This document shows positions 1,022 through 19,722 of a DNA stretch of 64,000 nt, in pieces. Source of the DNA: Cupriavidus pauculus (lineage in GTDB: Bacteria > Pseudomonadota > Gammaproteobacteria > Burkholderiales > Burkholderiaceae); assembly GCF_003854935.1 (NCBI RefSeq), contig NZ_CP033969.1, positions 806,001 through 870,000 of the forward strand, written 5' to 3'. The notes below the pieces were generated by a model. The model saw only the letters and a list, made by a program, of their open reading frames with translations, did no database searches and was not told the origin of the DNA. Both the position numbers and the translations under genes were made by a program. Positions within the stretch are counted from its first letter, which is position 1; every line of letters begins with the position of its first letter.

Positions 1022-1080
1022 GGGGACGCCAGGAAGAGTTGGCGCATTGTAACGTCGCCGGCTCGGTTAGAATTTTCGCC

Positions 1081-1923
1081 ATGCCCTCCCAACCGCGCGG
1101 CGCCCGGCCGTCCGCATCCGCCCCTGCCTTGCCCGATGCCAGCGCACCGGCGCGCACCCCATCCCCGGAATACACGATCGACGAACTCGCGCGTGCCGCC
1201 GGCACCACGGTGCGCAATATCCGCTCGTACCAGGACCGCGGTCTGATCGACCCGCCCGAGCGGCGCGGCCGCGTGGGCATCTACACGCAGACCCATCTGG
1301 GCCGGCTGCGGCTGATCCACCATCTGCTGGCGCGCGGCTACACGCTGGCCAACATCATGGAGCTGCTCAAGGCCATCGTGGAAGGGCACGACCTGCGTTC
1401 GATCCTGGGCCTGGAGACGGCCATCAGCAGCCCCTGGAACAGCGAGGCCCCGCGCCACTATTCGTACCTGGCGCTGGCGCGGCTGTTCGGGCGGGCGATC
1501 TCTCGCCCGGCGCTGGCCCGCGCGATCTCGCTGGGGCTGCTGGAGCCGGACGGCCTGGGCTACCTGGCGCGCAGTCCGCGCGCGCTGGCGGCCGGTGCCG
1601 AAATGGCGCGCGCCGGCTTTGCGCTGGAAGACGTGCTGGACATCATCGGCCATGCGCGCGAGCACTTCCAGGCCGTCTCGGACCGCATCGTCGCGATGGT
1701 GGTGCGGGAACTGGACAAGTTCGGCGAAGGCCAGCTCCCGCCGCCGGCAGAGGTGCCGCGCATTGTCGACGTGCTGTGGCGCATCCGCCCGCTCGCGCTG
1801 GTGGCGCTGGAAACCGAGATGATGCGGGCGCTGGAGCTGTCGGCCAACAAATACCTGGGCGACCGCGTGGCCGCCATCCTCGAACATCTGCACGACGCGC
1901 CGGGGACGCCGCCCAGGGGCTGA
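1081..1923 (+). CDS. MerR-family transcriptional regulator
   Basis: 280 aa from the ATG at 1081; an in-frame TTG 42 bases upstream is less likely. After a 30-residue Ala/Pro-rich leader comes the MerR winged helix (EYTIDELARAAGTTVRNIRSYQDRGL, then the GRVGIYTQTHLGRLRLI wing). A long C-terminal ligand or dimerisation region of about 180 residues follows. There is no Cys cluster of the metal-sensing MerR type, so an organic or stress ligand is more likely. It converges on the PF10118 operon, 13 bp from the end of that operon, and is a reasonable but unproven candidate regulator for it. Confidence 0.85.
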   Translation: MPSQPRGARPSASAPALPDASAPARTPSPEYTIDELARAAGTTVRNIRSYQDRGLIDPPERRGRVGIYTQTHLGRLRLIHHLLARGYTLANIMELLKAIVEGHDLRSILGLETAISSPWNSEAPRHYSYLALARLFGRAISRPALARAISLGLLEPDGLGYLARSPRALAAGAEMARAGFALEDVLDIIGHAREHFQAVSDRIVAMVVRELDKFGEGQLPPPAEVPRIVDVLWRIRPLALVALETEMMRALELSANKYLGDRVAAILEHLHDAPGTPPRG

Positions 1924-1936
1924 CCCAGCGCCCCGG

Positions 1937-2809
1937 CTACGCCGCGCCGCGGATCGGTGGCGCCTTGGTGCTGGCGCCGGCCCGCAGCGCCGTCTCCTCG
2001 ATCTCGGCGATCAGCGGCTGGATGCGATGCAGCGCCGCGCGGTTGTCGGCGTCCCACGGATGGAAGCCGGGCCGGAAGTAGTCGAACCATTCCGGAATCA
2101 TCTTGCGCAGCACGCCGGGCGACCCCCACAGAAAGTTCACCACGCTGCCAAAGCCGGTGAGCTTGTTGCGGCAGGTGCGGTCCGCCATCACCAGCCGCAC
2201 GTGGAACACGAACACCAGCGCCCAGAACGTCACCGTCGTGGTCAGCATCGTGAACGCCCGCAGCAGGTAGCGGTACGGGCCCGGCTTCATCACCAGGTTC
2301 CAGACGTCGTAGGCCACGGCCTTGTGCTCGGTTTCCTCCAGCGCGTGCCACGTCCACACCTGCCGGTAGCCGGGCTCGGAATTGCCCATGTGGCGCGGAT
2401 CAGCCAGCATCCCGCCGGCCAGCATCGCCGTGTAGTGTTCCAGCGCGATGGTGTGCGCCAGTTGCCACGACTTCGGCAGCACCTTGCGCAGCAGGTTCAG
2501 CAGCTTTGCCACGGCGTTGTCGAGCTTTGACGCGGGCAGGCCGGCATCGTCGAGCAGCCGGTTGTAGAGGATGTGCTCGCGCGTGTGCATGGCCTCCTGG
2601 CCGATGAAGCCGGCCACGGCCTGCTTGAGCTCGGGGTCGGTCACGCGGTCGCGGTAGTTGCGCACGCTGTCCATGAAAAAGCGCTCGCCGGCCGGAAAGA
2701 AGATCGACAGCGCGTTGATGAAATGGGTCACGTGCGGCCCGCGCTCGTGCCAGTCGCAGATGCGCGCCGGCGGAAGGTGGGGATGCACGTCACGGCGGAC
2801 TGGCATCAT
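1937..2809 (-). CDS. PF10118 'metal-dependent hydrolase' with diiron-like ligand pattern
   Basis: 290 aa, recognised as the PF10118 family usually named predicted metal-dependent hydrolase. The potential ligands are spaced as in ferritin-like diiron enzymes: E42, E72-x-x-H75 (QEAMH), E124 (ALEHY) and E159-x-x-H162 (EETEH). The C-terminal half has hydrophobic helices near residues 180-215 that may associate with membrane. It is the last gene of a four-gene operon and its start overlaps the stop of the alpha/beta hydrolase (ATGA at 2806-2809). An adjacent second ATG gives a one-residue shorter alternative. The diiron pattern suggests oxygen or redox chemistry beside the flavin monooxygenase; hydrolase activity is only the family label. 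Confidence 0.8.
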   Translation of the reverse strand: MMPVRRDVHPHLPPARICDWHERGPHVTHFINALSIFFPAGERFFMDSVRNYRDRVTDPELKQAVAGFIGQEAMHTREHILYNRLLDDAGLPASKLDNAVAKLLNLLRKVLPKSWQLAHTIALEHYTAMLAGGMLADPRHMGNSEPGYRQVWTWHALEETEHKAVAYDVWNLVMKPGPYRYLLRAFTMLTTTVTFWALVFVFHVRLVMADRTCRNKLTGFGSVVNFLWGSPGVLRKMIPEWFDYFRPGFHPWDADNRAALHRIQPLIAEIEETALRAGASTKAPPIRGAA

Positions 2810-3804
2810 GATGTGGACTCCTGTGCAAGGGCTGGCGCCGCGGGGGCGCGGTTCAGGAAACGCAGCAGGTCGGCCGCCACGCGCTGCGGGTCTTCCTCCA
2901 TCGGCACGTGCCCCAGCCCCGCGTAGCGGCGCAGCGTCACGTCGGGCAGGCGGGCTGCGAAGGCGTCGGCGTGCGCGGGCGGAACCCAGCGGTCGCGGTC
3001 GCCCCAGAGCACCAGCGTGGGCTGGCGCACGCCGCGCAGGCGTTCGGTATCGATCTGGTCGAAATCAAGCTTCGGCACCATGCGGCCCACGGCCTCGCGG
3101 CTGCCGGCCGCGTAGAAGAAGTCGACGTAGCGGCGGAACGTGGCCTCCGGCACGCGCGTGGCGTCGCCGTAGACGTCGCGCGTGGCTGCGCGGATGATCC
3201 ATTCGGGCAGCAGCCACGGCGCCGACCAGCGCACCGCGGCATGGCGGAACAGGTCGATATAGATCGGCAGCTTCATCGGAAAGCCGGCCGCGTCGATCAG
3301 CACCAGCCGGTTCACCATCGACGGCCGCCGCGCCGCCAGGTCCCACGCCACCAGCCCGCCCAGCGAATTGCCAACGAACGTGGCGCGCTGCAGCCCGATG
3401 GCGGCCAGGAAGGCGTCGATGAATGCGCGGTAGGCGTCGATATCCATCGTCACGATGCGTCCGCGTGCATCGCGCAGCGGGCCGGTCAGCCCGAACGGCG
3501 CCAGGTCCAGCCGGATCACGCGATGGTGCTGGCGCAGCGCCGGCAGCACGCCTTCCCAGGTATGGAGCGACGCGCCAAAGCCGTGGATCAGCACCAGCGG
3601 CTCGCCCTCGGGCGCGCCTTCGTCGGTGTAGTGGACCAGCGCGCCCATCACCTGCACCCAGCGCGACGCCGGCAGCGCGTAGCGGCGCGCCAGCGTATCG
3701 CGCGACAGGCTGAACAGGCCCACGCGCCCCTGGCCGAACCAGCGCGTGAAGGTGCCCGGCGGCGATTGCAGCACCGCTTCACGTGGCAGCGCGGCGCGCG
3801 TCAT
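2806..3804 (-). CDS. Alpha/beta hydrolase
   Basis: 332 aa. It has the oxyanion motif HGFG (74-77), the nucleophile elbow GNSLGG with Ser147, a late Asp in LVLWGDRDRWVPP and a C-terminal His in GLGHVPMEEDP, so the triad is complete. The cap region (about 165-240) is typical of ester or lactone hydrolases. The open frame continues upstream into the neighbouring gene, but translation should start at the ATG at 3804, which overlaps the SDR stop (ATGA). In an operon with a Baeyer-Villiger-type monooxygenase and an SDR, hydrolysis of the resulting ester or lactone is the natural role. The substrate is unknown. Confidence 0.88.
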   Translation of the reverse strand: MTRAALPREAVLQSPPGTFTRWFGQGRVGLFSLSRDTLARRYALPASRWVQVMGALVHYTDEGAPEGEPLVLIHGFGASLHTWEGVLPALRQHHRVIRLDLAPFGLTGPLRDARGRIVTMDIDAYRAFIDAFLAAIGLQRATFVGNSLGGLVAWDLAARRPSMVNRLVLIDAAGFPMKLPIYIDLFRHAAVRWSAPWLLPEWIIRAATRDVYGDATRVPEATFRRYVDFFYAAGSREAVGRMVPKLDFDQIDTERLRGVRQPTLVLWGDRDRWVPPAHADAFAARLPDVTLRRYAGLGHVPMEEDPQRVAADLLRFLNRAPAAPALAQESTS

Positions 3805-4694
3805 GCGGCGTCTCCGGTGCGGGCCGGCGCGGCGGCGGCATCTGGCACGAGCTGCTTGCGCTTGCGGCGCGCCTCGCGCACCACCAGCGACTGGTAGGCC
3901 GCCGGCAGCAGCCGCGCCATGGCGTCGGCCGCATAGGCATCGGGCCCGATCAGCACGCGGCGCTTGTTGGCCCGCACGCCGGCCAGGATCACGCGCGCGG
4001 CCTTGTCTGCCGACGTGATGAAGAACTTCTCGAATTCCTCGCGGCCCTGCTGGGCGTCGCGCACCAGCAGGCCGTTGACGCTGGGCGACACCCGGCTCGA
4101 CCGCGCGATGTTGGTCTTGATGCCGCCCGGGTGCACGGTCGTGGCCGACACGCCGCACTGCATCAGGTCCAGCTCCTGGCGCAGCGATTCGGTAAAGCCG
4201 CGCACCGCGTACTTGCTGGCGTTGTAGGCGCCCATGCCCGGCTGGGCGAACAGGCCGAAGACGCTGGACGTGTTGACCACGTGGCCTTCGCCGCTGGCCT
4301 TCAGGTACGGCAGGAACGCCTTGGTGCCGTGCACCACGCCCCAGAAGTTGATGCCGAGGATCCATTCCAGGTCGTCGTAGCCCATGCCCTCGACCGTGCT
4401 CGACAGCGCCACGCCAGCGTTGTTGAAGATCAGGTTCACGCGGCCGTGGTCGCGGGCCACGGCGTCGGCCCAGGCGTGCACGGCGGCGCGGTCGGCCACG
4501 TCCACGCAGGCGATGGTGGCGCGCACGTCGGGCGCCACGCGCCGCACGTCGGCCAGCGTCTGCGCCAGCCCGGCTTCGTCGCGGTCGCACATCGCCACGT
4601 GGCAGCCGGCCTGGGCCAACTGCACGGCCAGCGCGCGGCCCATGCCCGAGCCGGCGCCCGTGATGGCGGCTACCCGGTTGCGGAAATCCTTCAT
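3801..4694 (-). CDS. Short-chain dehydrogenase/reductase (SDR)
   Basis: 297 aa classical SDR. The nucleotide-binding motif TGAGSGMGR is at residues 12-20, NNAG at 91-94, the catalytic Ser in NTSS (143-144) and the YNASK motif places Tyr157 and Lys161. A C-terminal extension of about 40 residues ends in a basic Ala-rich tail. The start at 4694 has a GAGGAG-type ribosome site just upstream; longer in-frame starts would run into the intergenic spacer. It lies between the flavin monooxygenase and the alpha/beta hydrolase and would interconvert an alcohol and a ketone feeding the monooxygenase. NAD or NADP preference cannot be decided by eye. Confidence 0.9.
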   Translation of the reverse strand: MKDFRNRVAAITGAGSGMGRALAVQLAQAGCHVAMCDRDEAGLAQTLADVRRVAPDVRATIACVDVADRAAVHAWADAVARDHGRVNLIFNNAGVALSSTVEGMGYDDLEWILGINFWGVVHGTKAFLPYLKASGEGHVVNTSSVFGLFAQPGMGAYNASKYAVRGFTESLRQELDLMQCGVSATTVHPGGIKTNIARSSRVSPSVNGLLVRDAQQGREEFEKFFITSADKAARVILAGVRANKRRVLIGPDAYAADAMARLLPAAYQSLVVREARRKRKQLVPDAAAAPARTGDAA

Positions 4695-4728
4695 GCGTGG
4701 CTCCTCTGTCGTTGTGCGGATCGCCGCG

Positions 4729-6291
4729 TCACGCGCGGACCGTTTCGGCATGCCCCGGCTCGGCGGCAGCGGCGTTGCCATGGCGCACCGGCCAGCGCTC
4801 GTAGTCGCCCATGCGGAACGTGGCCGTGGCGCGGCGGAACTGGAACGTGAAGCCGGGCCAGAGCGTGGTGTTTTTGCGGCTGCGCGGGTCGATGTACCAG
4901 CTCGCGCAGCCGCCGGCCGTCCAGATCGCATGGCCGAGCTTGCGCTGGATGCCCTGGTTGAAGTTCGCCTGCACGGTCGGGCGCACGTCCACGGCCTGCA
5001 CGCCGTCGCGGCGCATCTGGCGCAGTGCGTCGAGCACGTAGTTCACCTGCGACTCGATCATGAACACCATCGAGCTGTGGCCCAGCCCTGTGTTCGGCCC
5101 GACGATCAGGAACAGGTTGGGAAATCCGGCCACGGTGGTGCCCAGGTACGCCTCGGCGCCGTCGCGCCAGGCATCGAGCAGGTCGCGCCCGTCGCGGCCG
5201 ACGATCACGCCGCGCGGCAGCGGATCGGTGGCATGAAAGCCGGTGCCCAGGATGATGGCGTCCGCTGGCCGGCGCGTGCCGTCGCGCAGCACCACGGCGT
5301 CTGGCTCCACGCGCGCGATGCCGGCGGTCACCACGTCGACGTTCTCGCGCATCAGCGCCGGGTAGTAGTCGTTGGAGATCAGCACGCGCTTGCAGCCGAT
5401 GGTGTAGTCGGGCGTCAGCGCCTGGCGCAGCGCGGGGTCGGGCACCTGCCGCTTCAGGTGGCGGCGCGCCACCTGCTCCACCGCCTTCATCAGCCGGGGA
5501 TGGATCACGAAACCGAGCACGCGCGATTCCAGCATCCAGTACAGGCCGGTGCGGACCAGCGCCTGCGTGGCCGGCACATGGCGGAACAGCCAGCGCTCGG
5601 CCGCCGTGACCGTGCGGTCCGGCTTGGGCATGATCCACGGCGGCGTGCGCTGGTAGAGATCGAGCCGCGCCACCTGCGGCGCGATCTGCGGCACGAACTG
5701 GATGGCGCTGGCGCCCGTGCCGATCACGGCCACGCGCTTGCCGGCCAGCGGGTAGTCGTGGCGCCACTGCTGGGAATGGAACAGCGTGCCGGCGAATGTG
5801 TCGAGGCCCGGGATATCGGGGATGGCCGGCCGGCTCAGCCCGCCCATGCCGGACACCAGCACGCGGGCGCGCACGCGCCGGCCATCGCGCATCCGCAGCC
5901 GCCAGAGCGCGGCGCCAGCGTCCCATTCGGCGCGCGCCAGCTCGTGGCCCAGCCGCAGGTGGCCGCGCAGGCCGAAGCGGTCTGTGCAGTGTTCGAGATA
6001 GCGGCGGATCTCCGGCTGGCGCGAGAACATGCGCGACCAGTCCGGATTCGGCGCGAACGAGAACGAGTAGAGATGCGATTGCACGTCGCAGGCGCAGCCG
6101 GGGTAGTGGTTGTCGCGCCAGGTGCCGCCCACCGAATCGGCCTTCTCGAAGATCAGGAAGTCGTCCACGCCCGACTGCTTGAGCCGGATGCCCATGCCGA
6201 GCCCGGCAAACCCGCTGCCGATGATGGCGATGTCGCACGCCTGTTCCGGCTCGGACGAGAGAAACGCTGGCAGCTCGGCGGGTGCATTCAT
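4729..6291 (-). CDS. Flavin-containing / Baeyer-Villiger-type monooxygenase
   Basis: 520 aa. The FAD Rossmann motif GSGFAG is at residues 25-30, followed by GGTWRDNHYPGCACD typical of class B flavoprotein monooxygenases. FAGTLFHSQQW (166-176) fits the Baeyer-Villiger fingerprint FxGxxxHxxxW, although the residue after the Trp is Arg rather than Pro or Asp. A second dinucleotide motif, VAVIGTGASA, starts near residue 187. The start MNAPAEL at 6291 leaves a normal N-terminus; longer in-frame versions would translate through the candidate promoter and operator at 6363-6408. It is first in the operon FMO - SDR - hydrolase - PF10118, consistent with ketone to ester to acid-plus-alcohol breakdown or lipid tailoring. 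Confidence 0.9.
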   Translation of the reverse strand: MNAPAELPAFLSSEPEQACDIAIIGSGFAGLGMGIRLKQSGVDDFLIFEKADSVGGTWRDNHYPGCACDVQSHLYSFSFAPNPDWSRMFSRQPEIRRYLEHCTDRFGLRGHLRLGHELARAEWDAGAALWRLRMRDGRRVRARVLVSGMGGLSRPAIPDIPGLDTFAGTLFHSQQWRHDYPLAGKRVAVIGTGASAIQFVPQIAPQVARLDLYQRTPPWIMPKPDRTVTAAERWLFRHVPATQALVRTGLYWMLESRVLGFVIHPRLMKAVEQVARRHLKRQVPDPALRQALTPDYTIGCKRVLISNDYYPALMRENVDVVTAGIARVEPDAVVLRDGTRRPADAIILGTGFHATDPLPRGVIVGRDGRDLLDAWRDGAEAYLGTTVAGFPNLFLIVGPNTGLGHSSMVFMIESQVNYVLDALRQMRRDGVQAVDVRPTVQANFNQGIQRKLGHAIWTAGGCASWYIDPRSRKNTTLWPGFTFQFRRATATFRMGDYERWPVRHGNAAAAEPGHAETVRA

Positions 6292-6638
6292 GAGGGCGCT
6301 TTCCGGTCTGGTGCCACGTCGCGTCCGCCGGGGGTGGCGAGGGCTGCGAACACCGTTGATTGTGACATTGATCGATGTCATCGTAGGGTCCGCTGCCGGG
6401 TCGGTCAAATGCGGTGGATGGAAGGATTGCTCTATTTTTCGGCGATATCCAGCGCCGTTGGCGTCACATTAAACGGCGTTCGTGCCGAAAGACCGGCATG
6501 GCAGGCGCCAGTCGGTCGTGCGTTTGAAACCGTTGCACGGCCCAAAAAAGAAATGCGCCGCTTCGGCAGAATCGCAACGCCGCCCCAGTGCGGCCGCGCC
6601 AGCCCCCGGCGACGCGCAGAACAACATCCGGAGACACG
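6292..6638. other. Divergent intergenic region, monooxygenase operon / GMC operon
   Basis: 347 bp without a convincing gene between two divergent operons. It contains the promoter/operator described at 6363-6408 and, at 6522-6536, a sequence resembling one upstream of the PsrA-like TetR gene (8929-8943). I see no clear sigma70 promoter for the rightward operon. Confidence 0.6.
6363..6408 (-). promoter_or_regulatory. Candidate promoter and operator of the monooxygenase operon
   Basis: On the minus strand, TTGACC (6403-6408) and TACGAT (6380-6385) are separated by exactly 17 bp, a plausible sigma70 promoter. Directly downstream, across the expected transcription start, lies an 18-bp dyad TGACAT-TGATCG-ATGTCA (6363-6380; arms perfect, 16 of 18 positions symmetric). 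A repressor site is the simplest reading. The MerR or TetR proteins encoded nearby are candidates, but nothing in the sequence proves which one binds. Confidence 0.5.
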
Positions 6639-7223
6639 ATGACAAACCCTGCCGATCCTGCCGTCCCGCCCGACCCGTCGCGCCGGGTGTTCCTGAAGCT
6701 CGGTGCCGGGCTATCAGCCGCCGTGGCCTGCTCGGCGCTGCTGCCGGGGCTGACGGGCTGCTCGCCGGCCGATACGCCGCCGCAGCCCGGCATGGCGTGG
6801 CTGCGCCCGGCGGACGTGGCGCTGTTCCGCGCGGTGCTGCCGGCCGTGGCGAGCGAACTCGAAGGGCTTGACGCGGCAACCCGCGCACGGCGCATCGACG
6901 CGGCCATGCGCAACATCGACGGCACCATTGCGGCGATGGACCTCAACGCACGCCACGAACTGCGCAAGCTGCTGGACCTGCTGGCCAGCGCGCCGCTGCG
7001 CTGGTTGCTGGCGGGCGTGCGCACGCCGTGGCACGCCGCCACGCCGGACCAGGTGCGCGCGTTCCTGGCGCGCTGGCGCGGCAGCCGGATCGGCGCGCTC
7101 AACGCCGGCGGCGTGGTGCTTGTGAAGCTGGCCAGCGTGAGCTACTTCGTCGCGCCGGACACCTGGGCCGCCAGCGGCTATCCCGGCCCCAACCCCGCCA
7201 TCTACCGCGCCCTCCAGGGCTGA
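6639..7223 (+). CDS. Tat-exported lipoprotein, small partner of GMC oxidoreductase
   Basis: 194 aa. The N-terminus has a twin-arginine motif SRRVFLK (Arg15-Arg16), a hydrophobic stretch and a lipobox-like LTGC ending at Cys41, so a Tat-exported and possibly lipidated protein is predicted. The rest is helical, with no catalytic motif that I recognise. Its position, 5 bp before a GMC oxidoreductase, matches the small Tat-signal subunits (gluconate 2-dehydrogenase subunit 3-like) that accompany membrane-linked GMC dehydrogenases and carry them across the membrane. The ATG at 6639 follows CCGGAGAC; an upstream in-frame start would bury the signal peptide. Confidence 0.75.
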   Translation: MTNPADPAVPPDPSRRVFLKLGAGLSAAVACSALLPGLTGCSPADTPPQPGMAWLRPADVALFRAVLPAVASELEGLDAATRARRIDAAMRNIDGTIAAMDLNARHELRKLLDLLASAPLRWLLAGVRTPWHAATPDQVRAFLARWRGSRIGALNAGGVVLVKLASVSYFVAPDTWAASGYPGPNPAIYRALQG

Positions 7224-7228
7224 CCGCC

Positions 7229-8824
7229 ATGCCGATTCCCGATCTCTACAGCGCCGGCATCGCGTCCGGCTGGAAGGTGCTGGACGCCGCCACGTTCACC
7301 GCGCCGCGCACCATCGACGCCGACGTTGTCATCGTCGGCACCGGCGCGGGCGGCGGCATTGCCGCCGAGCTGCTCAGCGAGGCCGGGCTGAACGTGGTGA
7401 TGGTGGAGGAGGGCGGCCTGCACACGTCCGACAGCTTCCGCGACATGGACGAGGCGCGCGCCTATCGCACCCTGTATCAGGAGGCCGCCGCGCGGGCCAC
7501 GTCGGACGGCGCCATCTCGATCCTGCAGGGCCGCGCCGTGGGCGGCAGCACCACGGTGAACTGGTCGTCGAGCTTCCGCACCCCGCCGCGCACGCTGGCG
7601 CACTGGGCTGCGCACCACGCGGTGGCCGGCCACGGCGAGCAGGACATGGCGCCATGGTTCGCCCGGATCGAGGAACGGCTCAGCATGGCGCCGTGGGCGA
7701 TGGATCCGAACCCGAACAACGCGGTGCTGCGGCGCGGGTGCGAAGCGCTCGGCTGGGAGTGGCACGTGATCCCGCGCAACGTGAAGGGCTGCTGGAATTC
7801 GGGCTACTGCGGCCTTGGCTGTCCGGTGAACGCCAAGCAGTCGATGCTGGTGTCGACGATCCCCGCCGCGCTGGCGCATGGCGCCACACTGGTCCACCGG
7901 CTGCGGGTACGGGCCATCGACCATGACGGCAAGGCCGTGCGGGGCGTGACGGGCGACGCGCTGGGCCATGACGGCTACTCGCCGACCGGCATCCGCGTCA
8001 CCGTCCGCGCCCGCCATGTCATTGCCGCGGGCGGGGCCATCAACACCCCGGCGCTGCTGCTGCGATCCCGCGTGCCCGACCCGTACCAGCGGCTCGGCCA
8101 ACGCACGTTTATTCATCCGGTGAATTTGAGTGTCGCCAAAATGCCGGAGAAAATCGATCCATACTATGGCGCGCCGCAGTCGATCGCGTCTGACCACTTC
8201 CAGTGGCGCCACGGCGCGACCGGGCCGATCGGCTACAAGCTCGAAGTCCCGCCGATGTTCCCGGGCATCAGCGCCGGCGTGCTGAACGGCATGGGCGACG
8301 ACCTGCGGCGCGACATGGCCGCGCTGCCGCACGCCAACGCCATGCTGGCGCTGCTGCGCGACGGCTTTGTGCCCGAAAGCCCCGGCGGGCGGGTCCGGAT
8401 TGCCGACGATGGCAGCCCGATCCTGGACTACGAAGTGAGCGACTACCTATGGGACGGGGTGCGCCGGGCCTACCTGAGCATGGCCGAGGCCCAGTTCGCG
8501 GCCGGGGCGCAGCGGGTGCGGCCGGCCCACCTGGATGCCACGTGGTACACAAGCTGGCCGCAGGCGCGCGACGCCATCGGCCAGTTGCCGCTCAAGCCGT
8601 TCCGCGTGCTCCTGTTCAGTGCGCACCTGATGGGCGGCTGCGCGATGAGCGAGGATCCGGCGCGCGGCGTGGTGAGCAGCGCGGGCCGCCATCACCAGTT
8701 GCCGAACCTGTACGTGCTCGACGGATCGGTATTTCCTACCAGCATCGGGGCCAATCCCCAGTTGTCAGTGCTGGCCCTGGCGGCGCAGAATGCCACGACG
8801 TTGCGCAAGACCATCACGGCGTGA
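7229..8824 (+). CDS. GMC-family FAD oxidoreductase (long-chain alcohol / sterol oxidase-like)
   Basis: 531 aa. The FAD motif GTGAGG is at residues 37-42, GRAVGGSTTVNWSSSFRTP is a GMC signature, and the C-terminus has HLMGGC and GSVFPTSIGANPQLSV, which include the usual catalytic His and Asn positions. A Cys-rich stretch GCWNSGYCGLGCPVNAKQS near residue 185 is typical of the long-chain alcohol oxidase and cholesterol oxidase-like branch. It has no signal peptide of its own, so export with the preceding Tat protein is plausible. It probably oxidises a hydrophobic alcohol and passes electrons to a carrier or oxygen. The start at 7229 is the ATG five bases after the upstream stop. Confidence 0.88.
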   Translation: MPIPDLYSAGIASGWKVLDAATFTAPRTIDADVVIVGTGAGGGIAAELLSEAGLNVVMVEEGGLHTSDSFRDMDEARAYRTLYQEAAARATSDGAISILQGRAVGGSTTVNWSSSFRTPPRTLAHWAAHHAVAGHGEQDMAPWFARIEERLSMAPWAMDPNPNNAVLRRGCEALGWEWHVIPRNVKGCWNSGYCGLGCPVNAKQSMLVSTIPAALAHGATLVHRLRVRAIDHDGKAVRGVTGDALGHDGYSPTGIRVTVRARHVIAAGGAINTPALLLRSRVPDPYQRLGQRTFIHPVNLSVAKMPEKIDPYYGAPQSIASDHFQWRHGATGPIGYKLEVPPMFPGISAGVLNGMGDDLRRDMAALPHANAMLALLRDGFVPESPGGRVRIADDGSPILDYEVSDYLWDGVRRAYLSMAEAQFAAGAQRVRPAHLDATWYTSWPQARDAIGQLPLKPFRVLLFSAHLMGGCAMSEDPARGVVSSAGRHHQLPNLYVLDGSVFPTSIGANPQLSVLALAAQNATTLRKTITA

Positions 8825-8860
8825 CTGAAATCGCCTGGCGGAATCGGCCACCACAGAAGG

Positions 8861-8943
8861 CTTGCAATTTAGAGCAAGTCTTCGAAAAATGGACTTGTGA
8901 AACGCTCGGAGCGCTGGATAGGCTCCCTACAACCGTTTGAAGC
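8861..8943 (+). promoter_or_regulatory. Possible control elements upstream of the TetR gene
   Basis: The spacer holds an inverted repeat CTTGC-aatttaga-GCAAG (8861-8878) and, at 8929-8943, ACAACCGTTTGAAGC. The latter resembles (11 of 15 positions) the reverse complement of 6522-6536 upstream of the GMC operon. PsrA sites are known as GAAAC/GTTTC-type dyads, so these may be autoregulatory sites. Weak evidence. Confidence 0.3.
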
Positions 8944-9038
8944 ATCCGTATGCCGACAGAGCGCGGAGCGGGACGGTGGTGGATTGCGTGACATTTTTTT
9001 GCAGGGGTCCACAGCGGTTTTTCAGCGAGAGACGCCCC

Positions 9039-9980
9039 ATGAAGACCGGGAAAACCACGGCAGGAGATACGAAGGCCCGCATCCTCGATGCGACCGAGAA
9101 ACTGTTCATCGAGGTAGGCTACGAGGCGACTTCGCTCAGGCAGGTGACTTCACGAGCGATCGTCAATCTGGCTGCCGTGAACTATCACTTCCGCAGCAAG
9201 GAAATCATGATGCAGTCGGTGCTGAGCCGCCGGCTGGATCCCCTCAACACGCGGCGCCTGGCGCTGCTGGACGCCTGCGAGGCCCGCTGGCCCGGCAACG
9301 CCATCCGCTGCGAGCACGTGATGGGCGCGCTGTTCGTGCCCGCGCTGCAGATGGCGCGCGAGCCGGAGATTGGCGGCCCGTCGTTCCTGCGCCTGCTCGG
9401 GCGCGTGTATTCCGATACCTCGCCATTCATCCAGTCCTGGCTGATGGGCCATTACGCGCCCGTCTTCGGACGCTTCTTCGAAGCGTTTGCGCGGGCGCTG
9501 CCCGACGTGCCGCGCCAGGAACTGGGCTGGCGCCTGCATTTCGCGCTCAAGGCGCTGGCCGGCGTGCTGGCTGGCGACGAACTGGGCAACCTGATGCCGG
9601 CCTTCACGCAGGGCAAGCGGATGAGCGACGCGCAGGTGCTGGCGCAACTGACGTCGATGGTGGTGGCGGCCCTGAAGGCGCCGTCGCCGGCCACGCAGGA
9701 ACTGGGCGCCCTGCAGGAAGTGTTCGAGATCGGCGAGGCCCAGCAGGCCGACGAACAGGCCCAGATGGCCGCGCAGGCCGCCACGGCCGAGACCGAGGCC
9801 CAGGAGCTGGCCGCCGCCACCGCCGCGGCGATGGGCCGGGCCCGGCGCAGCGCGCGGGCCGCACGCAGTGAAGGCGCATCGCGGCCGCCCACCGCCAGCA
9901 TGGCGGTACGCCGCGAGCATTGCGCCACCTTCCCCAGCAATCCGCTCGACGACTGGATGCGCACCCGCCCCAGGACATAG
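9039..9980 (+). CDS. TetR-family regulator, PsrA-like
   Basis: 313 aa. The N-terminal HTH (TKARILDATEKLFIEVGYE, TSLRQVTSRAIVNLAAVNYHF) and the ligand-binding part (FLRLLGRVYSDTSPF, ELGWRLHFALKAL) resemble PsrA, the fatty-acid-responsive repressor of pseudomonads; this is recalled, not aligned. The last 90 or so residues are unusual: an Ala/Gln/Glu-rich helical stretch, then an Arg/Ala-rich tail. The start at 9039 follows GAGAGACG; the longer TTG-initiated reading is unlikely. A long-chain acyl effector would fit the monooxygenase, alcohol oxidase and envelope genes on either side. Confidence 0.82.
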   Translation: MKTGKTTAGDTKARILDATEKLFIEVGYEATSLRQVTSRAIVNLAAVNYHFRSKEIMMQSVLSRRLDPLNTRRLALLDACEARWPGNAIRCEHVMGALFVPALQMAREPEIGGPSFLRLLGRVYSDTSPFIQSWLMGHYAPVFGRFFEAFARALPDVPRQELGWRLHFALKALAGVLAGDELGNLMPAFTQGKRMSDAQVLAQLTSMVVAALKAPSPATQELGALQEVFEIGEAQQADEQAQMAAQAATAETEAQELAAATAAAMGRARRSARAARSEGASRPPTASMAVRREHCATFPSNPLDDWMRTRPRT

Positions 9981-10198
9981 CGGCCCGCCGCCGCGGTCTC
10001 CACCGGGGCCGCGGCGCGCACCGCCACGAGCCGCGACGGCAACCGTCGCCTTCGAGAACGACCTGTTGATACGCCACGCCGAAGGCGAGGCGTGACCCCC
10101 TGCGCGCCGCGCCTGCCGCACGCATGCACCTGCCGTGGCTGCCACGCGCGGGAGGGCCCCGTCTTGCCTGACGCCAGACCACACACTGGAGACACGCG

Positions 10199-11098
10199 AT
10201 GAAGCAGATGGTCCTGATTGCCGCGATCGGCGGCATCCTGGGGTTCCTGGCCACGCAGCCGGGCACCCTGCTCCAGGCGCACGCGCAGGGCGCCCCGGCA
10301 GCGCCCGCCGCGGCCCGCCCCGCCACGCCCTACGACGGGTTGTCCACCGCCCAGCAGACTGCGCTGTTCGCCCGGCAGACGGCCAGCGGCGAACTGGCCG
10401 CGCTGCCGGACGCGCAGGTGCTGGCCGTGTTCGACGCGCTGCAGCCCGAGGCGCTGCTGACGTGGGCGCGCCAGGAGATCAACCGCTTTCCCGAGTACGA
10501 ATACACGATGACGCGCCAGGAGCGGCTGAACGGCCAGTGGCAGGACAAGCCCGCGCGCATGTTCATCCGCTACCGCCACATGCCGCGCCAGCTCTACGCC
10601 AGGTGGCTGCCCAACGGCGCGCAGGCGGGGCAGGAGATCCTGTACGACGAGACCAAGCGCAAGGACGAGATGTACGGCCACCTGGGCGGCATCATGGGCT
10701 TCACGTCGATCTGGACGTCGATCGACGGCTCGCTGGCCAGGTCGCAGTCGAACCACACCGTGCGCGACCTGGGCTTCCAGTTCGTGCTGTCGATGCTGGA
10801 ACGCGACGCCAGGACGCTGCGCGCCGCCGGGCTGTCCGAGAAGTACAGCCGCGCCGAGATCGTGCAGGAGCACGGCACGCGCATGGTGGCGCTGACCTGG
10901 GAGCTGCCCGAGGGCGCGCCCAAGTACTACGCCAAGAAGGTCCAGCTGATGTTCGACCTCAAGCATCCGTGGCCGCGCGCGGAAACGGCCTGGGATGCCG
11001 ACGGCAACATGGTCGAGAAGATCGTCTTCGAGAAGGCCGCGAAGAAGTCGTTCGATGCGTCCGCGTTCGACCCCACCAACAGCGAATACAAGTTCTGA
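10199..11098 (+). CDS. DUF1571 family periplasmic protein
   Basis: 299 aa with an N-terminal signal peptide (hydrophobic about 5-20, cleavage near AHAQG). The pattern EYEYTMTRQERLNGQWQ, MFIRYRHMPRQLYARW and EILYDETKRKDEMY matches the DUF1571 family as I know it: exported proteins with an LolA-like feel and no known enzyme activity. Start at 10199 after GGAGACACG. It is followed by two DUF2957 lipoproteins and an OmpW-like porin on the same strand, suggesting an envelope module. A role in handling a hydrophobic molecule or lipid is inference from context only. Confidence 0.75.
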   Translation: MKQMVLIAAIGGILGFLATQPGTLLQAHAQGAPAAPAAARPATPYDGLSTAQQTALFARQTASGELAALPDAQVLAVFDALQPEALLTWARQEINRFPEYEYTMTRQERLNGQWQDKPARMFIRYRHMPRQLYARWLPNGAQAGQEILYDETKRKDEMYGHLGGIMGFTSIWTSIDGSLARSQSNHTVRDLGFQFVLSMLERDARTLRAAGLSEKYSRAEIVQEHGTRMVALTWELPEGAPKYYAKKVQLMFDLKHPWPRAETAWDADGNMVEKIVFEKAAKKSFDASAFDPTNSEYKF

Positions 11099-11324
11099 AG
11101 CGCGCCACGCCGGGCGTCACCCCCGTTTGAATGCGCGTGCCGGGCCACGCGCGGGCGGTTTGAACAGGCCACGTGATCGCTTGGCCAACAACGGCCCACG
11201 GCACGGCGGCGATGTTTGGAACGAGCGCTCTATTGCGCGCAGGCGCTTGAAACGCGAGATTCCGACCACCGTGCGACACCTTGGCCCATGCCGGTGCGCG
11301 CGCCATAAGAACGAGGAGACAACC

Positions 11325-12689
11325 ATGCACCCGTCGATCCTTCGACGCACCACCTTTGCCGTTGCCGGGGTAAGCCTGACCATCGCGCTGGCCGCCTGCG
11401 GCGGCGGCGACGGCGACCCCGGTGGCACCACGCCGCAGGCCGCCGCGCAGCAATGCGCCACCAATGGGACGTGCACGCCGTCGGGCCCCACCCTCAATCA
11501 TCCGGTGGCCGCCATCTGCCCGGCCACGCTGGACTACGGCACCACGTACACGGGCGGATCGGGGGCGGGCGAACTGCTGAAGATCCAGCTCGACAGCAAG
11601 CAGGGCACCTACCGCATCCAGGTGCTCGAATCGGCCGTGCCGCAGGTGCCGGGCGAGGTCAATCCCACCCGCGCCGGCGTGACGTTCACCGGCACCATGT
11701 CGCACCCGACCCGCCCGCTGCCCACGGCCGCGCAGAACAACTGCGCGTACGAGCTGAAGACCGCCGAGGCGTCCGACGGGCGCTCGCAGGCGCTGATCGA
11801 TCCGGCCAATCCGCCGATCCTGTTCGTCGGCAACGGTGTGGTCGGCGGTGGCATCCCGGGCGCGACGATCAGCTTCGGCGGCATCTTCGGCATCGGCGTC
11901 ATTCCGGCCAAGACGTTCCCGATGTACCCGGCGCTGGCGTTTGCCGAGACCGAGACCGATTTCAGCAAGGTGGCCGGCCGCTACAACGTGCTGGGTTATC
12001 ACCTGGTGCCGTCCGGCGGCAGCATCGTGGCCAGCGACCACTTTGTGGCCGGCACCTACAGCGGCACCGAAACGCTGCAGGCCGACGGGTCCTGCACGGG
12101 CCCGAACAACGCCGCCTGCCGCACGACGGGCACGCCGTGGACGCTGCGGGCCGATGGCGCGGGCTTCGACAGCGGCAACGCCGAGGCGTCCGGCGGCGCC
12201 CAGTATCCGATCTTCTACAGCCAGCGCGTACAGACCCGTGATTCGCGGGCCCATGGCGTGCTGGTGGTCGGCAAGCTGGAAGGCCAGCGCGTGCCGCTGG
12301 TGGTGCGCGTGGGCTACGCCATCGCGGACCTGTCGACGTTCGACATCAACATCGACGACGAATCCGGCATCGCGCTGCTGGCGCCGGCCACCGCGGCTAC
12401 GGCCGCCACGCTCAAGGGCGGCTACATCGGCTCGGGCAGCGATTTCCGCTACGTCGCATCGTCGCTGCACGACAACGTGGGCGCGTGGCTCGATCCGCAG
12501 GACCCGTCGCTCACGCCCACGGGCGGCTTCCAGATGGATCTGACGCAGGCCACGCAGCCGGGGCTGGTGGGCACCGTGGACAACAGCGGCATCACCGGCT
12601 CGCTCATCACCACGGGCCCCGTGTACGCGCACCTGTTCGGCGACGCCGCCAACCCGACATTCCGCGTCAGCGCCGTGGCCAGCCGCTAG
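11325..12689 (+). CDS. DUF2957 lipoprotein (copy 1)
   Basis: 454 aa. Signal peptide with lipobox ALAAC followed by a GGGDGDPGG linker, so the mature protein is probably a lipid-anchored envelope protein. The body is beta-rich (LDYGTTYTGGSGAGELLKIQ, DFSKVAGRYNVLGYHLVPSGG) and belongs to DUF2957, a family I know mainly from Burkholderiaceae and with no assigned function. It is a paralogue of the next gene: both share SVDYSTPYIGG/TLDYGTTYTGG, the ETD-(F/L)-KVAG motif and the VGKL-GQ-VP block. The leader carries CCATAAGAACG (11303-11313), also found upstream of copy 2. Confidence 0.82.
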   Translation: MHPSILRRTTFAVAGVSLTIALAACGGGDGDPGGTTPQAAAQQCATNGTCTPSGPTLNHPVAAICPATLDYGTTYTGGSGAGELLKIQLDSKQGTYRIQVLESAVPQVPGEVNPTRAGVTFTGTMSHPTRPLPTAAQNNCAYELKTAEASDGRSQALIDPANPPILFVGNGVVGGGIPGATISFGGIFGIGVIPAKTFPMYPALAFAETETDFSKVAGRYNVLGYHLVPSGGSIVASDHFVAGTYSGTETLQADGSCTGPNNAACRTTGTPWTLRADGAGFDSGNAEASGGAQYPIFYSQRVQTRDSRAHGVLVVGKLEGQRVPLVVRVGYAIADLSTFDINIDDESGIALLAPATAATAATLKGGYIGSGSDFRYVASSLHDNVGAWLDPQDPSLTPTGGFQMDLTQATQPGLVGTVDNSGITGSLITTGPVYAHLFGDAANPTFRVSAVASR

Positions 12690-12748
12690 CCGCTGCCCGC
12701 ACCCCAGTACCCTGCCTCGCCCATAAGAACGTACCAAGGAGACTCCAC

Positions 12749-13999
12749 ATGCAGCAGCATCCGATCCCACGCTGGACGCCGCGCCTGGCGCTGGCGCTCG
12801 TCACCACCACGTTGCTGGCCGCCTGCGGCGGCGGGGACGGCGGTGGCGGGGGCACGTCCACGCCGGCGTCGGTGACGCCACGGCTGTGTCCCGCATCGGT
12901 CGACTACTCGACGCCGTACATCGGCGGCACCGGCTCCGGCGAGCTGGTCAAGGTGCAGATCGACACGGCAAGGATGACGTGGGCCGTGACGTTCCTGGAT
13001 TCGTCGGTGCCGCGTACGCCGGGCACGGTCTCGCCCACGCGCTCGGACCCCACCGACGGCAAGAACGTGATGACCGGCAAGCTGGCGCAGGAAACCACGC
13101 TGCCGACCCAGAAGCTGAACCAGTGCGCGTTTGTGCTGCAGGGCGCCAGCCTGGACCCGGCGCGCCCGGCCAAGCTGTTCCTGGGCGAGGGCGTGATGGG
13201 CGGCACCATTCCCGGCGCGCGCATCCAGTTCAACGGCCTGCTTGGCGCGGGCGCGGTGCCCGACACCACCTTCCCGTACTTCCAGTTCATCGGCTTTGCC
13301 CAGACCGAGACCGACCTGGGCAAGGTGGCCGGCGTCTACAACGGATCGGGCTTCCACGAGATCCCGTCGCAGGGCTTTGCGCAGGTGGCGCAGGACTACC
13401 GGATGTCGCTGGCGGCCGACGGCTCGTTCACGGTCTGCGACAACCGCAGCGGCGGCACCTGCAAGCAGAAGGGCAACAAGTTCGTGGCGCAGCCCACCGG
13501 CACGCTGATGTCCACCAACTACGAAGGCGAGCGTGCGCCGACGCTGGGCGCCGTGATGGGCCGCGCGTACCTGATCGTCGGCAAGCTGCGCGGCCAGCTG
13601 GTGCCGGTGATGATCCGCGTGGGCTACGCCAGCGCCGAGGCGCTGCCGCTGGGCGCCGACGACGAGATCGGCATCGGCATGATGGCGCCGGCCGTGGCGG
13701 CCACGCAGGGCACGATCAACGGCGAGTACGTGGGCGTGGACAGCGCGTTCGAGTACAAGACCACGGCGCTGGTGGGGGCCGACGCGGCCATGCTGGACCC
13801 GTTCCACGCATCGGACGCCACGCGGGCCATCGCGCTGAAGCTCGACTTCTCGCAAACCACGCCCGGCGTGATCACCACCACGCGCAAGGAAGGCACGCCC
13901 GGCATCACCGGCAAGCTGATGTTCACGGGCGGCGTGTTCGGCTTCCTGGAAAACCGCAACGGCAGCCCGTACTTCACGATCGGCGCCTTCGTCGAATAA
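12749..13999 (+). CDS. DUF2957 lipoprotein (copy 2)
   Basis: 416 aa, paralogous to the preceding gene. Lipobox LLAAC, then a Gly-rich GGGDGGGGG linker. Shared blocks include TPYIGGTGSGELVKVQ, AQTETDLGKVAGVYN and IVGKLRGQLVPVMIRVGYA. A good AGGAGAC ribosome site precedes the ATG at 12749, and the same CCATAAGAACG element occurs at 12721-12731. The tandem pair followed by an OmpW-like protein suggests surface or periplasmic components acting together. No enzymatic motif is visible and the function is unknown. Confidence 0.82.
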   Translation: MQQHPIPRWTPRLALALVTTTLLAACGGGDGGGGGTSTPASVTPRLCPASVDYSTPYIGGTGSGELVKVQIDTARMTWAVTFLDSSVPRTPGTVSPTRSDPTDGKNVMTGKLAQETTLPTQKLNQCAFVLQGASLDPARPAKLFLGEGVMGGTIPGARIQFNGLLGAGAVPDTTFPYFQFIGFAQTETDLGKVAGVYNGSGFHEIPSQGFAQVAQDYRMSLAADGSFTVCDNRSGGTCKQKGNKFVAQPTGTLMSTNYEGERAPTLGAVMGRAYLIVGKLRGQLVPVMIRVGYASAEALPLGADDEIGIGMMAPAVAATQGTINGEYVGVDSAFEYKTTALVGADAAMLDPFHASDATRAIALKLDFSQTTPGVITTTRKEGTPGITGKLMFTGGVFGFLENRNGSPYFTIGAFVE

Positions 14000-14013
14000 C
14001 AGGGGAGACCACG

Positions 14014-14865
14014 ATGCAGAACAAGCGCCTCACCCTGGCATGCCGGCTGGCCACCGCCGCCTTGCTGGCCGCCGGCCTGGCCGCGCCGGCCCACGCGCAG
14101 AAGGCTGGCGACAACGTCGTGTCGGCCGGCTGGTTCCATATCCAGACGTTCGGCACCAGCGGGCCGCTGACCACCAACGTCGTCGACGTGCCGATCAACT
14201 ACCCGCTCGGGCTGCCGTCATCGTTCACGGCGCCGGGCAGCGGGCTGTCGTCGTCGAACGCGGACACGCTGGGGCTGACCTTCAGCCACTTTGTCACCGA
14301 CCACATCGCCATCACGGGCGTGGGCGGAATCCCGCCGACATTCAAGATCTACGGCCACGGCGAGCTGATTCCGCCCGGGCCCGCCGGCGCGCTGGGCCGC
14401 CAGAGCCTGGGCGACCCGTCGCTGAACCCGATCATCACGCGCGCACGGCAGTGGAGCCCGGCCGCCATGGTGCAGTACCACTTCCGCTCGCCGGGGGTGT
14501 CGTTCCGGCCGTTCGTGGGCGTGGGGGTGTCGTACAACTTCTTCACCGACATCAAGGTCAACCCGGCCTTTGCCGAGTCCGTCAACAACAACCTCGGCGC
14601 CATCCTGGCCGCGGGGGCCGGCATCCCCGGCCCGACGTCGGTCAGCGCCGACGCGTCGTCGTCATGGGCGCCGATCTTCAACCTGGGCGCCACTTACAAC
14701 TTCAACGAGCACTGGGGCGTGACCGGCGCGGTGACCTACATCCCGCTGAAATCGGAATCGACGATGACGATCAAGGCGTCGGACGGCACCGTGCTGTCCA
14801 CGTCGAAGACCACGCTGCGGCCCAACCCGCTCGTGTTCTTCCTGGCGGCGACGTACAAGTTCTGA
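14014..14865 (+). CDS. OmpW-family outer-membrane protein
   Basis: 283 aa with a signal peptide (cleavage near AHAQ, about residue 29). The mature part shows amphipathic beta strands and the OmpW signatures FSHFVTDHIAITGVGG, PSVMVQYHF-like (SPAAMVQYHFRS), FRPFVGVGVSYNFF and a C-terminal aromatic LAATYKF. It is 14 bp after the DUF2957 gene with a GGGGAGACC ribosome site, so it is probably co-transcribed. OmpW porins are 8-strand barrels that admit hydrophobic compounds; AlkL is a relative. Hydrophobic substrate entry would suit the oxidative genes upstream. It is somewhat longer than E. coli OmpW because of loop insertions. Confidence 0.88.
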   Translation: MQNKRLTLACRLATAALLAAGLAAPAHAQKAGDNVVSAGWFHIQTFGTSGPLTTNVVDVPINYPLGLPSSFTAPGSGLSSSNADTLGLTFSHFVTDHIAITGVGGIPPTFKIYGHGELIPPGPAGALGRQSLGDPSLNPIITRARQWSPAAMVQYHFRSPGVSFRPFVGVGVSYNFFTDIKVNPAFAESVNNNLGAILAAGAGIPGPTSVSADASSSWAPIFNLGATYNFNEHWGVTGAVTYIPLKSESTMTIKASDGTVLSTSKTTLRPNPLVFFLAATYKF

Positions 14866-15026: not shown

Positions 15027-16511
15027 TTACTGCGTGGTCGTCGTCGCCGGGGCTGGCTGCGGGGCCGCCTGGGCCACCGCGCCGGTTTCGTTCAGGCCGC
15101 CGCCGAGCGCGCGGTACAGGTCGATCGCGTTGGTCAGCCGAAGCTGCCGCGCCTGCACCAGCGCCTGTTCGGCCGAGAACAGCTGGCGCTGGGCGTCCAG
15201 TTCATCCAGGTAGCTCGCCACGCCGCTGCGGAAGCGCAGCCGCGACAGCTCGTAGCGCGCGGCCTCGGCGTTGCGCTGCTGCTCCTGGCCGGCCACCTGT
15301 TCCTCCAGCGTGCCGCGTGCCACCAGCGCGTCGGCCACCTCGGAAAACGCGGTCTGGATCGTCTTCTCGTAGTTGGCCACCTGGATGTTCTTGCGCACGT
15401 TGGCCAGGTCCAGGTTCGACAGGTTGCGGCCATAGTCGAAGATCGGCAGCACCAGTTGCGGCGAGAACGACCACACGCCCGCGCCGTTGTCGAACAGGTT
15501 CGTGAACGACGTGCTGATGTTGCCCGCGTTGGCCGTCATCGTGATGCGCGGGAAGAACGCCGCGCGCGCCGCGCCGATGTTGGCGTTGGCCGACAGCAGC
15601 GCCTGCTCGGCCTGGCGGATGTCCGGACGCTGCGTCAGCAGATCCGAGGGCAGGCCCTCGGGGATGTCGCTGATGATGCGCTCGTCAGACAGCCGCATCG
15701 GCGCCGGCAGGTTCGGAATCTCGGCGATGGGCTTGCCCACCAGCACTTCCAGCGCGTTCTGCGCCTGCGCGCGCTGACGCGCGAGCTGGGCGGCGGACAC
15801 GCGGGCCTGGGCCACCAGCGACTCGTTGTCGCGCAGATCCAGCGCCGACGTGGCGCCGGCATCGAAGCGCTTCTTGGCCAGTTCGAACGTGCTCTGGCGC
15901 GCCTCCAGCGTCTCGCGCGCCAGATCGTACTGCTCGGCGGCGGCCCGCTCGGCCAGGTACGCCTTGGCCACCTCGGACACCAGCGAGATGTACGCGGCGC
16001 GGTGCGCCTCCTCGGTGGAGAAGTACTGCGCCAGCGCGGCGTTCGACAGGCTGCGCACGCGGCCGAAGAAGTCCAGCTCCCACTGCGTCACCGACAGGCC
16101 CACCTGGTAGATGTTGCCCGTGAACGACTGGTTCACGCCCGACGTGGCGCCCGAGAACCGCCCGCGCTGGAAGCTCGCGTTGCCGTTCACCGTCGGCAGC
16201 AGGTCGGCGCGTTGGATCTGGTACTGCGCGCGCGCTTCCTCGATCCGCAGCGCGGCCGTGCGCAGGTCGCGGTTGTTTTCCAGCGACGTGGCGATCAGCG
16301 TCTGCAGCCGCGGGTCGGTGAAGAACTCGCGCCAGCCGATATCGGCGGCCCGGCGCGTCTCGCCGCTCTTCACCTCGGCCGTGGCGTAGCCGTCCGGCGC
16401 GGCCGGGTAGCTGCCGGCCACGGGGGCGGCGGGGCGGTCGTAGCGCGGCGCCAGCGTGCAGCCGCTCATCACCCCGGCCACCAGCAGCAATGTGGTCAAA
16501 GTCTTGGTCAT
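15027..16511 (-). CDS. RND efflux outer-membrane lipoprotein, NodT/OprM family
   Basis: 494 aa. Lipobox VMSGC near residue 18, then TLAPRYDRP as in OprM-type channels. Two repeated helical-barrel halves follow, seen from the duplicated patterns QTLIATSLENNRDLR/ADALVARGTLEEQV and ELDFFGRVRSL/PIFDYGRNLSNL. It forms the trimeric channel across the outer membrane for the adjacent pump. It starts 2 bp after the RND gene stop, and the three genes adaptor - pump - channel form one minus-strand operon. The low-complexity end (AAPQPAPATTTTQ) is probably exposed in the periplasm. Confidence 0.93.
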   Translation of the reverse strand: MTKTLTTLLLVAGVMSGCTLAPRYDRPAAPVAGSYPAAPDGYATAEVKSGETRRAADIGWREFFTDPRLQTLIATSLENNRDLRTAALRIEEARAQYQIQRADLLPTVNGNASFQRGRFSGATSGVNQSFTGNIYQVGLSVTQWELDFFGRVRSLSNAALAQYFSTEEAHRAAYISLVSEVAKAYLAERAAAEQYDLARETLEARQSTFELAKKRFDAGATSALDLRDNESLVAQARVSAAQLARQRAQAQNALEVLVGKPIAEIPNLPAPMRLSDERIISDIPEGLPSDLLTQRPDIRQAEQALLSANANIGAARAAFFPRITMTANAGNISTSFTNLFDNGAGVWSFSPQLVLPIFDYGRNLSNLDLANVRKNIQVANYEKTIQTAFSEVADALVARGTLEEQVAGQEQQRNAEAARYELSRLRFRSGVASYLDELDAQRQLFSAEQALVQARQLRLTNAIDLYRALGGGLNETGAVAQAAPQPAPATTTTQ

Positions 16512-16513
16512 GG

Positions 16514-19669: not shown

Positions 19670-19722
19670 GAATCTGGCTCCCTAAACGGATTCTCTGCGG
19701 ATTCTCTGGATGGCTCGCCGCC

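Follow-up and report, generated by a model that had tools for sequence, protein, structure and literature searches.

A modular locus of oxidation and envelope genes in Cupriavidus pauculus, possibly for an aliphatic hydrophobic compound

We examined a locus in a 64,000-nucleotide (nt) stretch of Cupriavidus pauculus DNA (NZ_CP033969.1, positions 806,001-870,000; host genome 6.18 Mb), the whole of which we call the window. Two divergent operons, one headed by a Baeyer-Villiger-type flavin monooxygenase (BVMO) and the other pairing a small twin-arginine (Tat) protein with a GMC flavoprotein, lie beside a cassette encoding a TetR regulator, a DUF1571 protein, two DUF2957 lipoproteins (a and b) and an OmpW-family channel (Table 1). 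This layout, proposed in an initial annotation made from the sequence, was confirmed by coordinates, strands and a Pfam scan of 13 proteins (span 83-14,865), which also upheld each family named there: PF10118, alpha/beta hydrolase (ABH), short-chain dehydrogenase/reductase (SDR), FMO-like flavoprotein, GMC, TetR, DUF1571, DUF2957 twice and OmpW. The genes listed were all present, but the list had omitted the MerR gene of the oxidation module, and we corrected three gene starts (ABH 3804, BVMO 6291, GMC 7229). The coordinates show the minus-strand operon to be tight, with a BVMO-SDR gap of 34 bp and ATGA overlaps at both the SDR-ABH and ABH-PF10118 junctions.

Table 1. Genes and one DNA feature of the locus, in window coordinates.
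Feature	Position	Strand	Evidence
MerR-family regulator, convergent with the oxidation operon	1081..1923	+	PF13411 E 2.7e-21
PF10118 "predicted metal-dependent hydrolase", diiron-like	1937..2809	-	PF10118 E 3.7e-87
Alpha/beta hydrolase (ABH), probable esterase	2806..3804	-	PF00561 E 3.4e-30
SDR, probably converting a secondary alcohol to a ketone	3801..4694	-	PF00106 E 1.3e-47
Baeyer-Villiger-type flavin monooxygenase (BVMO)	4729..6291	-	PF00743 E 5.7e-13
Small twin-arginine protein, partner of GMC	6639..7223	+	SRRVFLK motif
GMC flavin alcohol dehydrogenase, no evident signal of its own	7229..8824	+	PF00732 E 7.8e-51, PF05199
TetR regulator, PsrA-like	9039..9980	+	PF17939 E 2.1e-23; TetR_N and TetR_C_30
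DUF1571 protein, predicted LolA-like periplasmic carrier	10199..11098	+	
Operator-like dyad TGGAACG-NN-CGCTCTA	11217..11232		
DUF2957 lipoprotein a	11325..12689	+	PF11170 E 3.6e-120; lipobox LAAC
DUF2957 lipoprotein b, predicted beta-barrel lipoprotein	12749..13999	+	
OmpW-family outer-membrane channel	14014..14865	+	PF03922 E 1.3e-14

Within the genus, where a BVMO ortholog was defined by at least 75% identity, 20 of 36 genomes carried one, and we compared 19 loci from the 19 genomes other than our own. The gene order was kept in all 19, the exceptions being in content: L041 lacks the Tat-GMC pair and L051 lacks DUF2957a. A 20th fetched locus, L052, holds a BVMO of 47% but no other gene of the set, and stands outside the 19. 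Because the order is kept in all 19 of these congeneric loci, the locus is not a chance run of open reading frames. DUF1571 and the BVMO also go together in content: among 24 named loci, 21 hold both and three (L070, L072 and L075) hold neither. These three retain TetR, DUF2957 and OmpW, and L070 the Tat-GMC pair as well. Searches of their whole genomes, run without a positive control of their own but with queries that matched in the family-wide searches, found no DUF1571 match at E <= 1e-10 and no BVMO match at E <= 1e-100. The changes were placed on a TolC-RND tree, on which the nearest named record is Cupriavidus sp. D384 (97% identity); L133 was chosen because its genome lacks the BVMO, and L073 was dropped for having neither TolC nor RND.

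Shared order inside one genus is weak evidence, so we extended the comparison to the wider family, using 131 Burkholderiaceae genomes drawn evenly, with counts uncorrected for descent. Homologs were held by 51 genomes for DUF2957 (E <= 1e-20), 63 for DUF1571 (E <= 1e-20), 43 for the BVMO ortholog (E < 1e-200, that is, 43 of the 51 genomes matched) and nine for GMC (E <= 1e-100). The BVMO set includes G104, whose ortholog (G104:C23:18642-20135) has an in-frame stop and is perhaps a pseudogene. DUF2957 and the BVMO occurred together in 41 genomes, DUF2957 without the BVMO in 10, the BVMO without DUF2957 in two and neither in 78 (Fisher p 5e-22). For DUF1571 and the BVMO the corresponding numbers were 38, 25, five and 63 (p 4e-11).

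In two genomes of another genus (G165 and G112), the corresponding loci, L116 and L117, read DUF2957a-DUF2957b-OmpW-MerR-BVMO-SDR-PF10118-alpha/beta hydrolases-DUF1571 on one strand. These are the window's kinds of gene, minus TetR and Tat-GMC, in a different order. No other single argument for a joint function of the set is as strong as this re-clustering; because a co-directional, re-ordered set occurs there, the tie between the genes appears to be functional and more than neighbourhood. Of the 33 genomes of other genera with both the BVMO and DUF2957, however, 31 have them unlinked. A reading as one fixed system was not supported: close GMC relatives are confined to the genus, the BVMO and DUF2957 are mostly unlinked elsewhere, and the three loci named above keep the TetR-DUF2957-OmpW part without the BVMO. 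A plasmid DNA search with the first 16 kb of the window returned seven records, the best covering 15% of the query.

We then considered the oxidation module. Type I BVMOs carry two fingerprints, [AG]GxWxxxx[FY]P[GM]xxxD, and FxGxxxHxxxW followed by P or D. The first is complete in the window protein (GGTWRDNHYPGCACD). The second reads FAGTLFHSQQW followed by R, and the orthologs printed show R, N, S or D at that position. In the PDB the BVMO comes closest to cyclohexanone, phenylacetone and steroid monooxygenases, with E values as low as 8.8e-72. In the PF10118 protein the ligand set E41, E71xxH74, E123 and E158xxH161 is invariant in 7/7 aligned members and matches the ferritin-like diiron pattern E, ExxH, E, ExxH, suggesting a diiron-type protein that is perhaps an oxygenase making the first alcohol. 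We fetched other-genus BVMO loci from 10 of 35 such genomes and added L053. Both SDR and PF10118 lie near the BVMO in 10 of these 11, and MerR does so in nine, as it does in 15 of the 19 congeneric loci; MerR is thus part of the oxidation module, a usual companion of the BVMO operon. From their families, the BVMO, SDR and hydrolase would convert an alcohol to a ketone, then to an ester, and finally to an acid and an alcohol.

Relatives of these enzymes occur in other settings. On a B. glumae plasmid (L093, 9001-11466) a BVMO is fused to an alpha/beta hydrolase and stands beside GMC, aldehyde dehydrogenase and AraC genes, and of the 30 plasmid matches listed, 19 are B. glumae plasmids. On a Mycolicibacterium chubuense plasmid PF10118 has as neighbours an SDR, three FAD oxidoreductases, a hydrolase and a gene annotated as P450; on an Acinetobacter plasmid a P450-ferredoxin set lies close to it, with an IS5 gene in between. 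In Pseudomonas it stands by AraC and a hydrolase, and in Marinobacter no such enzyme stands beside it. In L043, an AraC gene with PF12625, an arabinose-binding domain, lies between Tat-GMC and the BVMO (10139-11242), and other congeneric loci with a longer gap before the BVMO likewise have space for an extra gene. This AraC has relatives, at 27-28%, that are found beside PF10118, P450 and BVMO clusters in Pseudomonas, Acinetobacter and B. glumae. In Cupriavidus JMP134, four BVMO genes lie near esterases and dehydrogenases, with substrates unknown (PMC2842291).

The small Tat protein carries an SRRVFLK motif and its gene is 5 bp from that of GMC, the pair being divergent from the BVMO operon, but it falls under every Pfam cut-off, including that of TAT_signal, and has no NCBIfam match. 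The best solved relatives of GMC are cholesterol oxidases, in weak and partial matches. All nine family genomes with close relatives belong to the window's genus; outside it there were none at E <= 1e-100 among the 131 genomes and none at E <= 1e-60 among plasmids.

In the envelope cassette we looked first at DUF1571. Among 10 other-genus DUF1571 loci, fetched from 55 such genomes, eight have the gene directly after FadD (seven) or thiolase (one) of a beta-oxidation operon, three have a PsrA-like TetR, and two have an OmpW gene after DUF1571. In L119 and L131, of genus g48, an OmpW-like gene comes after DUF1571 where a beta-oxidation run ends, and in L119 an amine-oxidase-like flavoprotein comes next. 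The low-confidence model predicted for DUF1571 resembles the fold of LolA and RseB, which LprG shares, and a profile search of the PDB found no match. The DUF2957 models are predicted beta-barrels; in comparison with TbpB and fHbp, in which lobes of lipocalin or fatty-acid-binding-protein-like barrels sit on a lipid anchor, the matches of DUF2957 are middling. OmpW scores 55 bits against a PF03922 cut-off of 24, placing it in the family, and of the 27 loci fetched from outside the Cupriavidus group, 26 have its gene next to DUF2957b. A hydrophobic channel is described for OprG, which is related to OmpW (PMC2993939). DUF1571 is not named in the literature searched, in which one paper names DUF2957, and papers on AlmA, OmpW and fatty-acid transcriptomes, PsrA and FadP gave no function for this locus.

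Relatives of DUF2957b and OmpW at 51-60% also turned up on a 3-kb scaffold labelled as a Jatrophihabitans metagenome-assembled genome (L084), the only occurrence here outside Burkholderiaceae and probably misbinned; with a stop in its DUF2957 frame as cut, it was excluded from alignment A3. On the opposite strand beyond OmpW, open reading frames at window positions 15027-20976 resemble TolC and an RND pump, and a TolC relative lies in the fetched stretch beside the cassette, at most ~6 kb away, in 23 of 24 named loci.

The TetR regulator is PsrA-like. It matches PDB entry 2fbq over residues 8-218 of 313 (E 1.3e-29), but its 129.8 bits against NF053516 are far below the PsrA equivalog cut-off of 300, which makes it a relative rather than an equivalog. 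The TetR that precedes FadD-DUF1571 in L121 aligns with it at 58% across 229 residues. The PsrA operator is G/CAAAC-N2-4-GTTTG/C (PMC13104628); we found no exact site in the 64 kb and three one-mismatch sites, of which the one at 11249 falls in the region. For Ralstonia and Burkholderia it is predicted that the fatty-acid genes are divided between PsrA and another TetR regulator, FadP (PMC5343134).

A different dyad (Table 1) precedes DUF2957a in 23 of 24 named loci, at a distance of 105-136 bp (108 bp in the window) and with one mismatch in two of these loci, and its 2-bp centre varies freely among loci, as expected of a binding site. Similar one-mismatch dyads precede TetR in L069 and L070; the other-genus loci scanned had none except one in L079, away from the cassette. 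A looser form has three exact matches in the genome, against none for the control: in the window, upstream of a NUDIX gene, and among unscanned genes. The dyad is a plausible candidate for the operator of the local TetR.

For the first hydroxylation we also looked elsewhere in the genome. Its two PF00487 matches appear by eye desaturase-like rather than AlkB, and no AlkB was recognised as a first enzyme. P450 genes occur at five places, the nearest ~160 kb from the locus. One of the five, in a long open frame (L136, G000:C2:976797-978068), has a flavodoxin/reductase-like extension, CYP102-like by eye, and could yield subterminal hydroxy fatty acids.

On this evidence we put forward, with confidence evenly divided for and against, that the locus is modular and catabolic, serves an aliphatic hydrophobic compound and has envelope intake parts of its own. 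Judging from the families, its enzymes probably convert an oily alcohol or ketone to fatty acids, and its envelope proteins probably import such compounds. For the hydrophobic compound first suggested, fatty-acyl-type substrates would agree with OmpW, the PsrA-like TetR, the LolA-like DUF1571 model and the position of DUF1571 after FadD or thiolase elsewhere. We infer the following steps. OmpW would pass the compound through the outer membrane, aided by the two DUF2957 lipoproteins, and DUF1571 would act in the periplasm as a LolA-like soluble carrier that shields a substrate or product of acyl type; there the Tat-exported GMC protein may oxidise alcohols. Inside the cell the SDR would make a ketone and the BVMO an ester, which the hydrolase would cleave to a fatty acid and an alcohol for beta-oxidation to complete; PF10118 would perhaps supply the first alcohol as an oxygenase. 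The envelope cassette is probably under the control of the TetR regulator, which would answer to a fatty acyl ligand.

Several observations weigh against this proposal. Three named loci (L070, L072, L075) hold DUF2957 without the BVMO, as do 10 of the 51 DUF2957 genomes; five of the 43 genomes with the BVMO have no DUF1571, and the BVMO is missing from 25 of the 63 with DUF1571. Descent is uncorrected in these co-occurrence counts, and on the tree there are three joint changes of BVMO and DUF1571, one of them L133 (which also lacks the DUF2957 cassette), with only one pair on well-supported branches. Linkage of BVMO and DUF2957 within 20 kb is found in just two of 33 other-genus genomes with both, and no hydrolase of L116 closely resembles those of the window, the best match being 33% over 124 residues. 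The second fingerprint is incomplete in the window BVMO, the DUF1571 model is of low confidence, and unrelated barrels score as high as the middling fold matches of DUF2957. There is no convincing PsrA motif site in the window and no dyad within one mismatch before the BVMO; the two other exact dyad places, before the NUDIX gene and among unscanned genes, give no fatty-acid regulon; and no AlkB was recognised in the genome, judging its two PF00487 matches by eye.

Alternatively, the locus could be a variable hot spot, with unrelated cargo modules between LysR/MerR genes and an RND efflux operon kept together in the genus by descent only and sharing no pathway. Modules have been gained or lost separately here (L062, L070, L072, L075, L133), and the unlinked state in 31 of 33 genomes elsewhere fits such a history. 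We nevertheless consider it rather unlikely: the set re-clusters in another order in L116 and L117, and DUF1571 and the BVMO are jointly missing while the intervening TetR, and in L070 also Tat-GMC, stays. A substrate of another shape is the least probable alternative we weighed, a distant prospect in which an alicyclic, terpenoid or steroid ketone would be the target of the BVMO, with the hydrolase opening the resulting lactone. The best solved relatives of the BVMO and the cholesterol oxidases weakly related to GMC point that way, but such enzymes dominate solved structures, and the match is therefore weak evidence; moreover, the 13 locus proteins scanned include no ring-degradation family, and the tie to beta-oxidation genes favours a chain-like substrate.

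The set could instead remodel or salvage membrane lipids under stress, not feed on external compounds, as in the mymA operon of M. tuberculosis. That operon combines a BVMO with an SDR and an alpha/beta hydrolase, and also holds FadD13, wax synthases and AdhD, under VirS. The window trio resembles that part of it, and L043 has an AraC gene with PF12625 upstream of its BVMO; the window differs in having PF10118 and MerR, and its 13 scanned proteins include no family of wax synthase, AdhD or FadD13 type. The operon is reported necessary for a proper envelope, with an envelope and lipid role (PMC9044951), and the LolA/RseB-like model of DUF1571 would suit such upkeep. We regard envelope maintenance as improbable, however, since DUF1571 follows beta-oxidation genes in eight of 10 other-genus loci, and a BVMO ortholog in just 20 of 36 congeneric genomes is a better fit to niche catabolism.

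Other systems share parts of the proposed catabolic route. In Thalassolituus oleivorans a BVMO and an esterase are raised on C28 alkane (PMC6304351). They act with an alcohol dehydrogenase in a subterminal alkane or secondary alcohol route whose products are again a fatty acid and an alcohol. The genes there (TOL_0709, TOL_0906, TOL_2772) are scattered whereas ours form one operon, and protein expression on alkane was shown for that species (PMC6304351). The window shares with the alk system of Pseudomonas putida GPo1 an OmpW-like channel (AlkL), an alcohol dehydrogenase (AlkJ, a GMC protein) and a hydrophobic substrate, but its genome has no recognised AlkB, and it has a BVMO route and added lipoproteins. 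AlkL accelerates alkane uptake (PMC5376172). Burkholderia cenocepacia BCAL0198-BCAL0200, with consecutive tags, comprise OmpW and two DUF2957 lipoproteins considered as antigen candidates; unlike here, no monooxygenase is named beside them in the excerpt (PMC10303873). With the FadD/thiolase-DUF1571 operons of other Burkholderiaceae the locus has DUF1571 in common, although in Cupriavidus this gene is at the BVMO locus instead.

The initial annotation knew of no described pathway with this set. The BVMO-SDR-hydrolase trio is a known kind of pathway, so that part is not new; what is new is its association with DUF1571 and DUF2957, two uncharacterised families that their genome context and predicted folds connect with lipids. 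A more specific, and doubtful, extension is that the two DUF2957 lipoproteins, OmpW and DUF1571 act together in Burkholderiaceae as a relay across the envelope. Surface DUF2957 lipoproteins with fatty-acid-binding-like barrels would catch a long-chain hydrophobe, OmpW would pass it, and LolA-like DUF1571 would ferry it, or a released acyl chain, across the periplasm to a genus-specific oxidation module, either the BVMO module or a FadD beta-oxidation operon. If true, lipids would be taken in by a chain of proteins that includes a soluble carrier in the periplasm. We know of no named chain of this kind, and to our knowledge the movement of very hydrophobic food across the Gram-negative periplasm is poorly understood. 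Genome context and predicted fold now link DUF1571 and DUF2957 to lipid intake and beta-oxidation, making direct tests possible.

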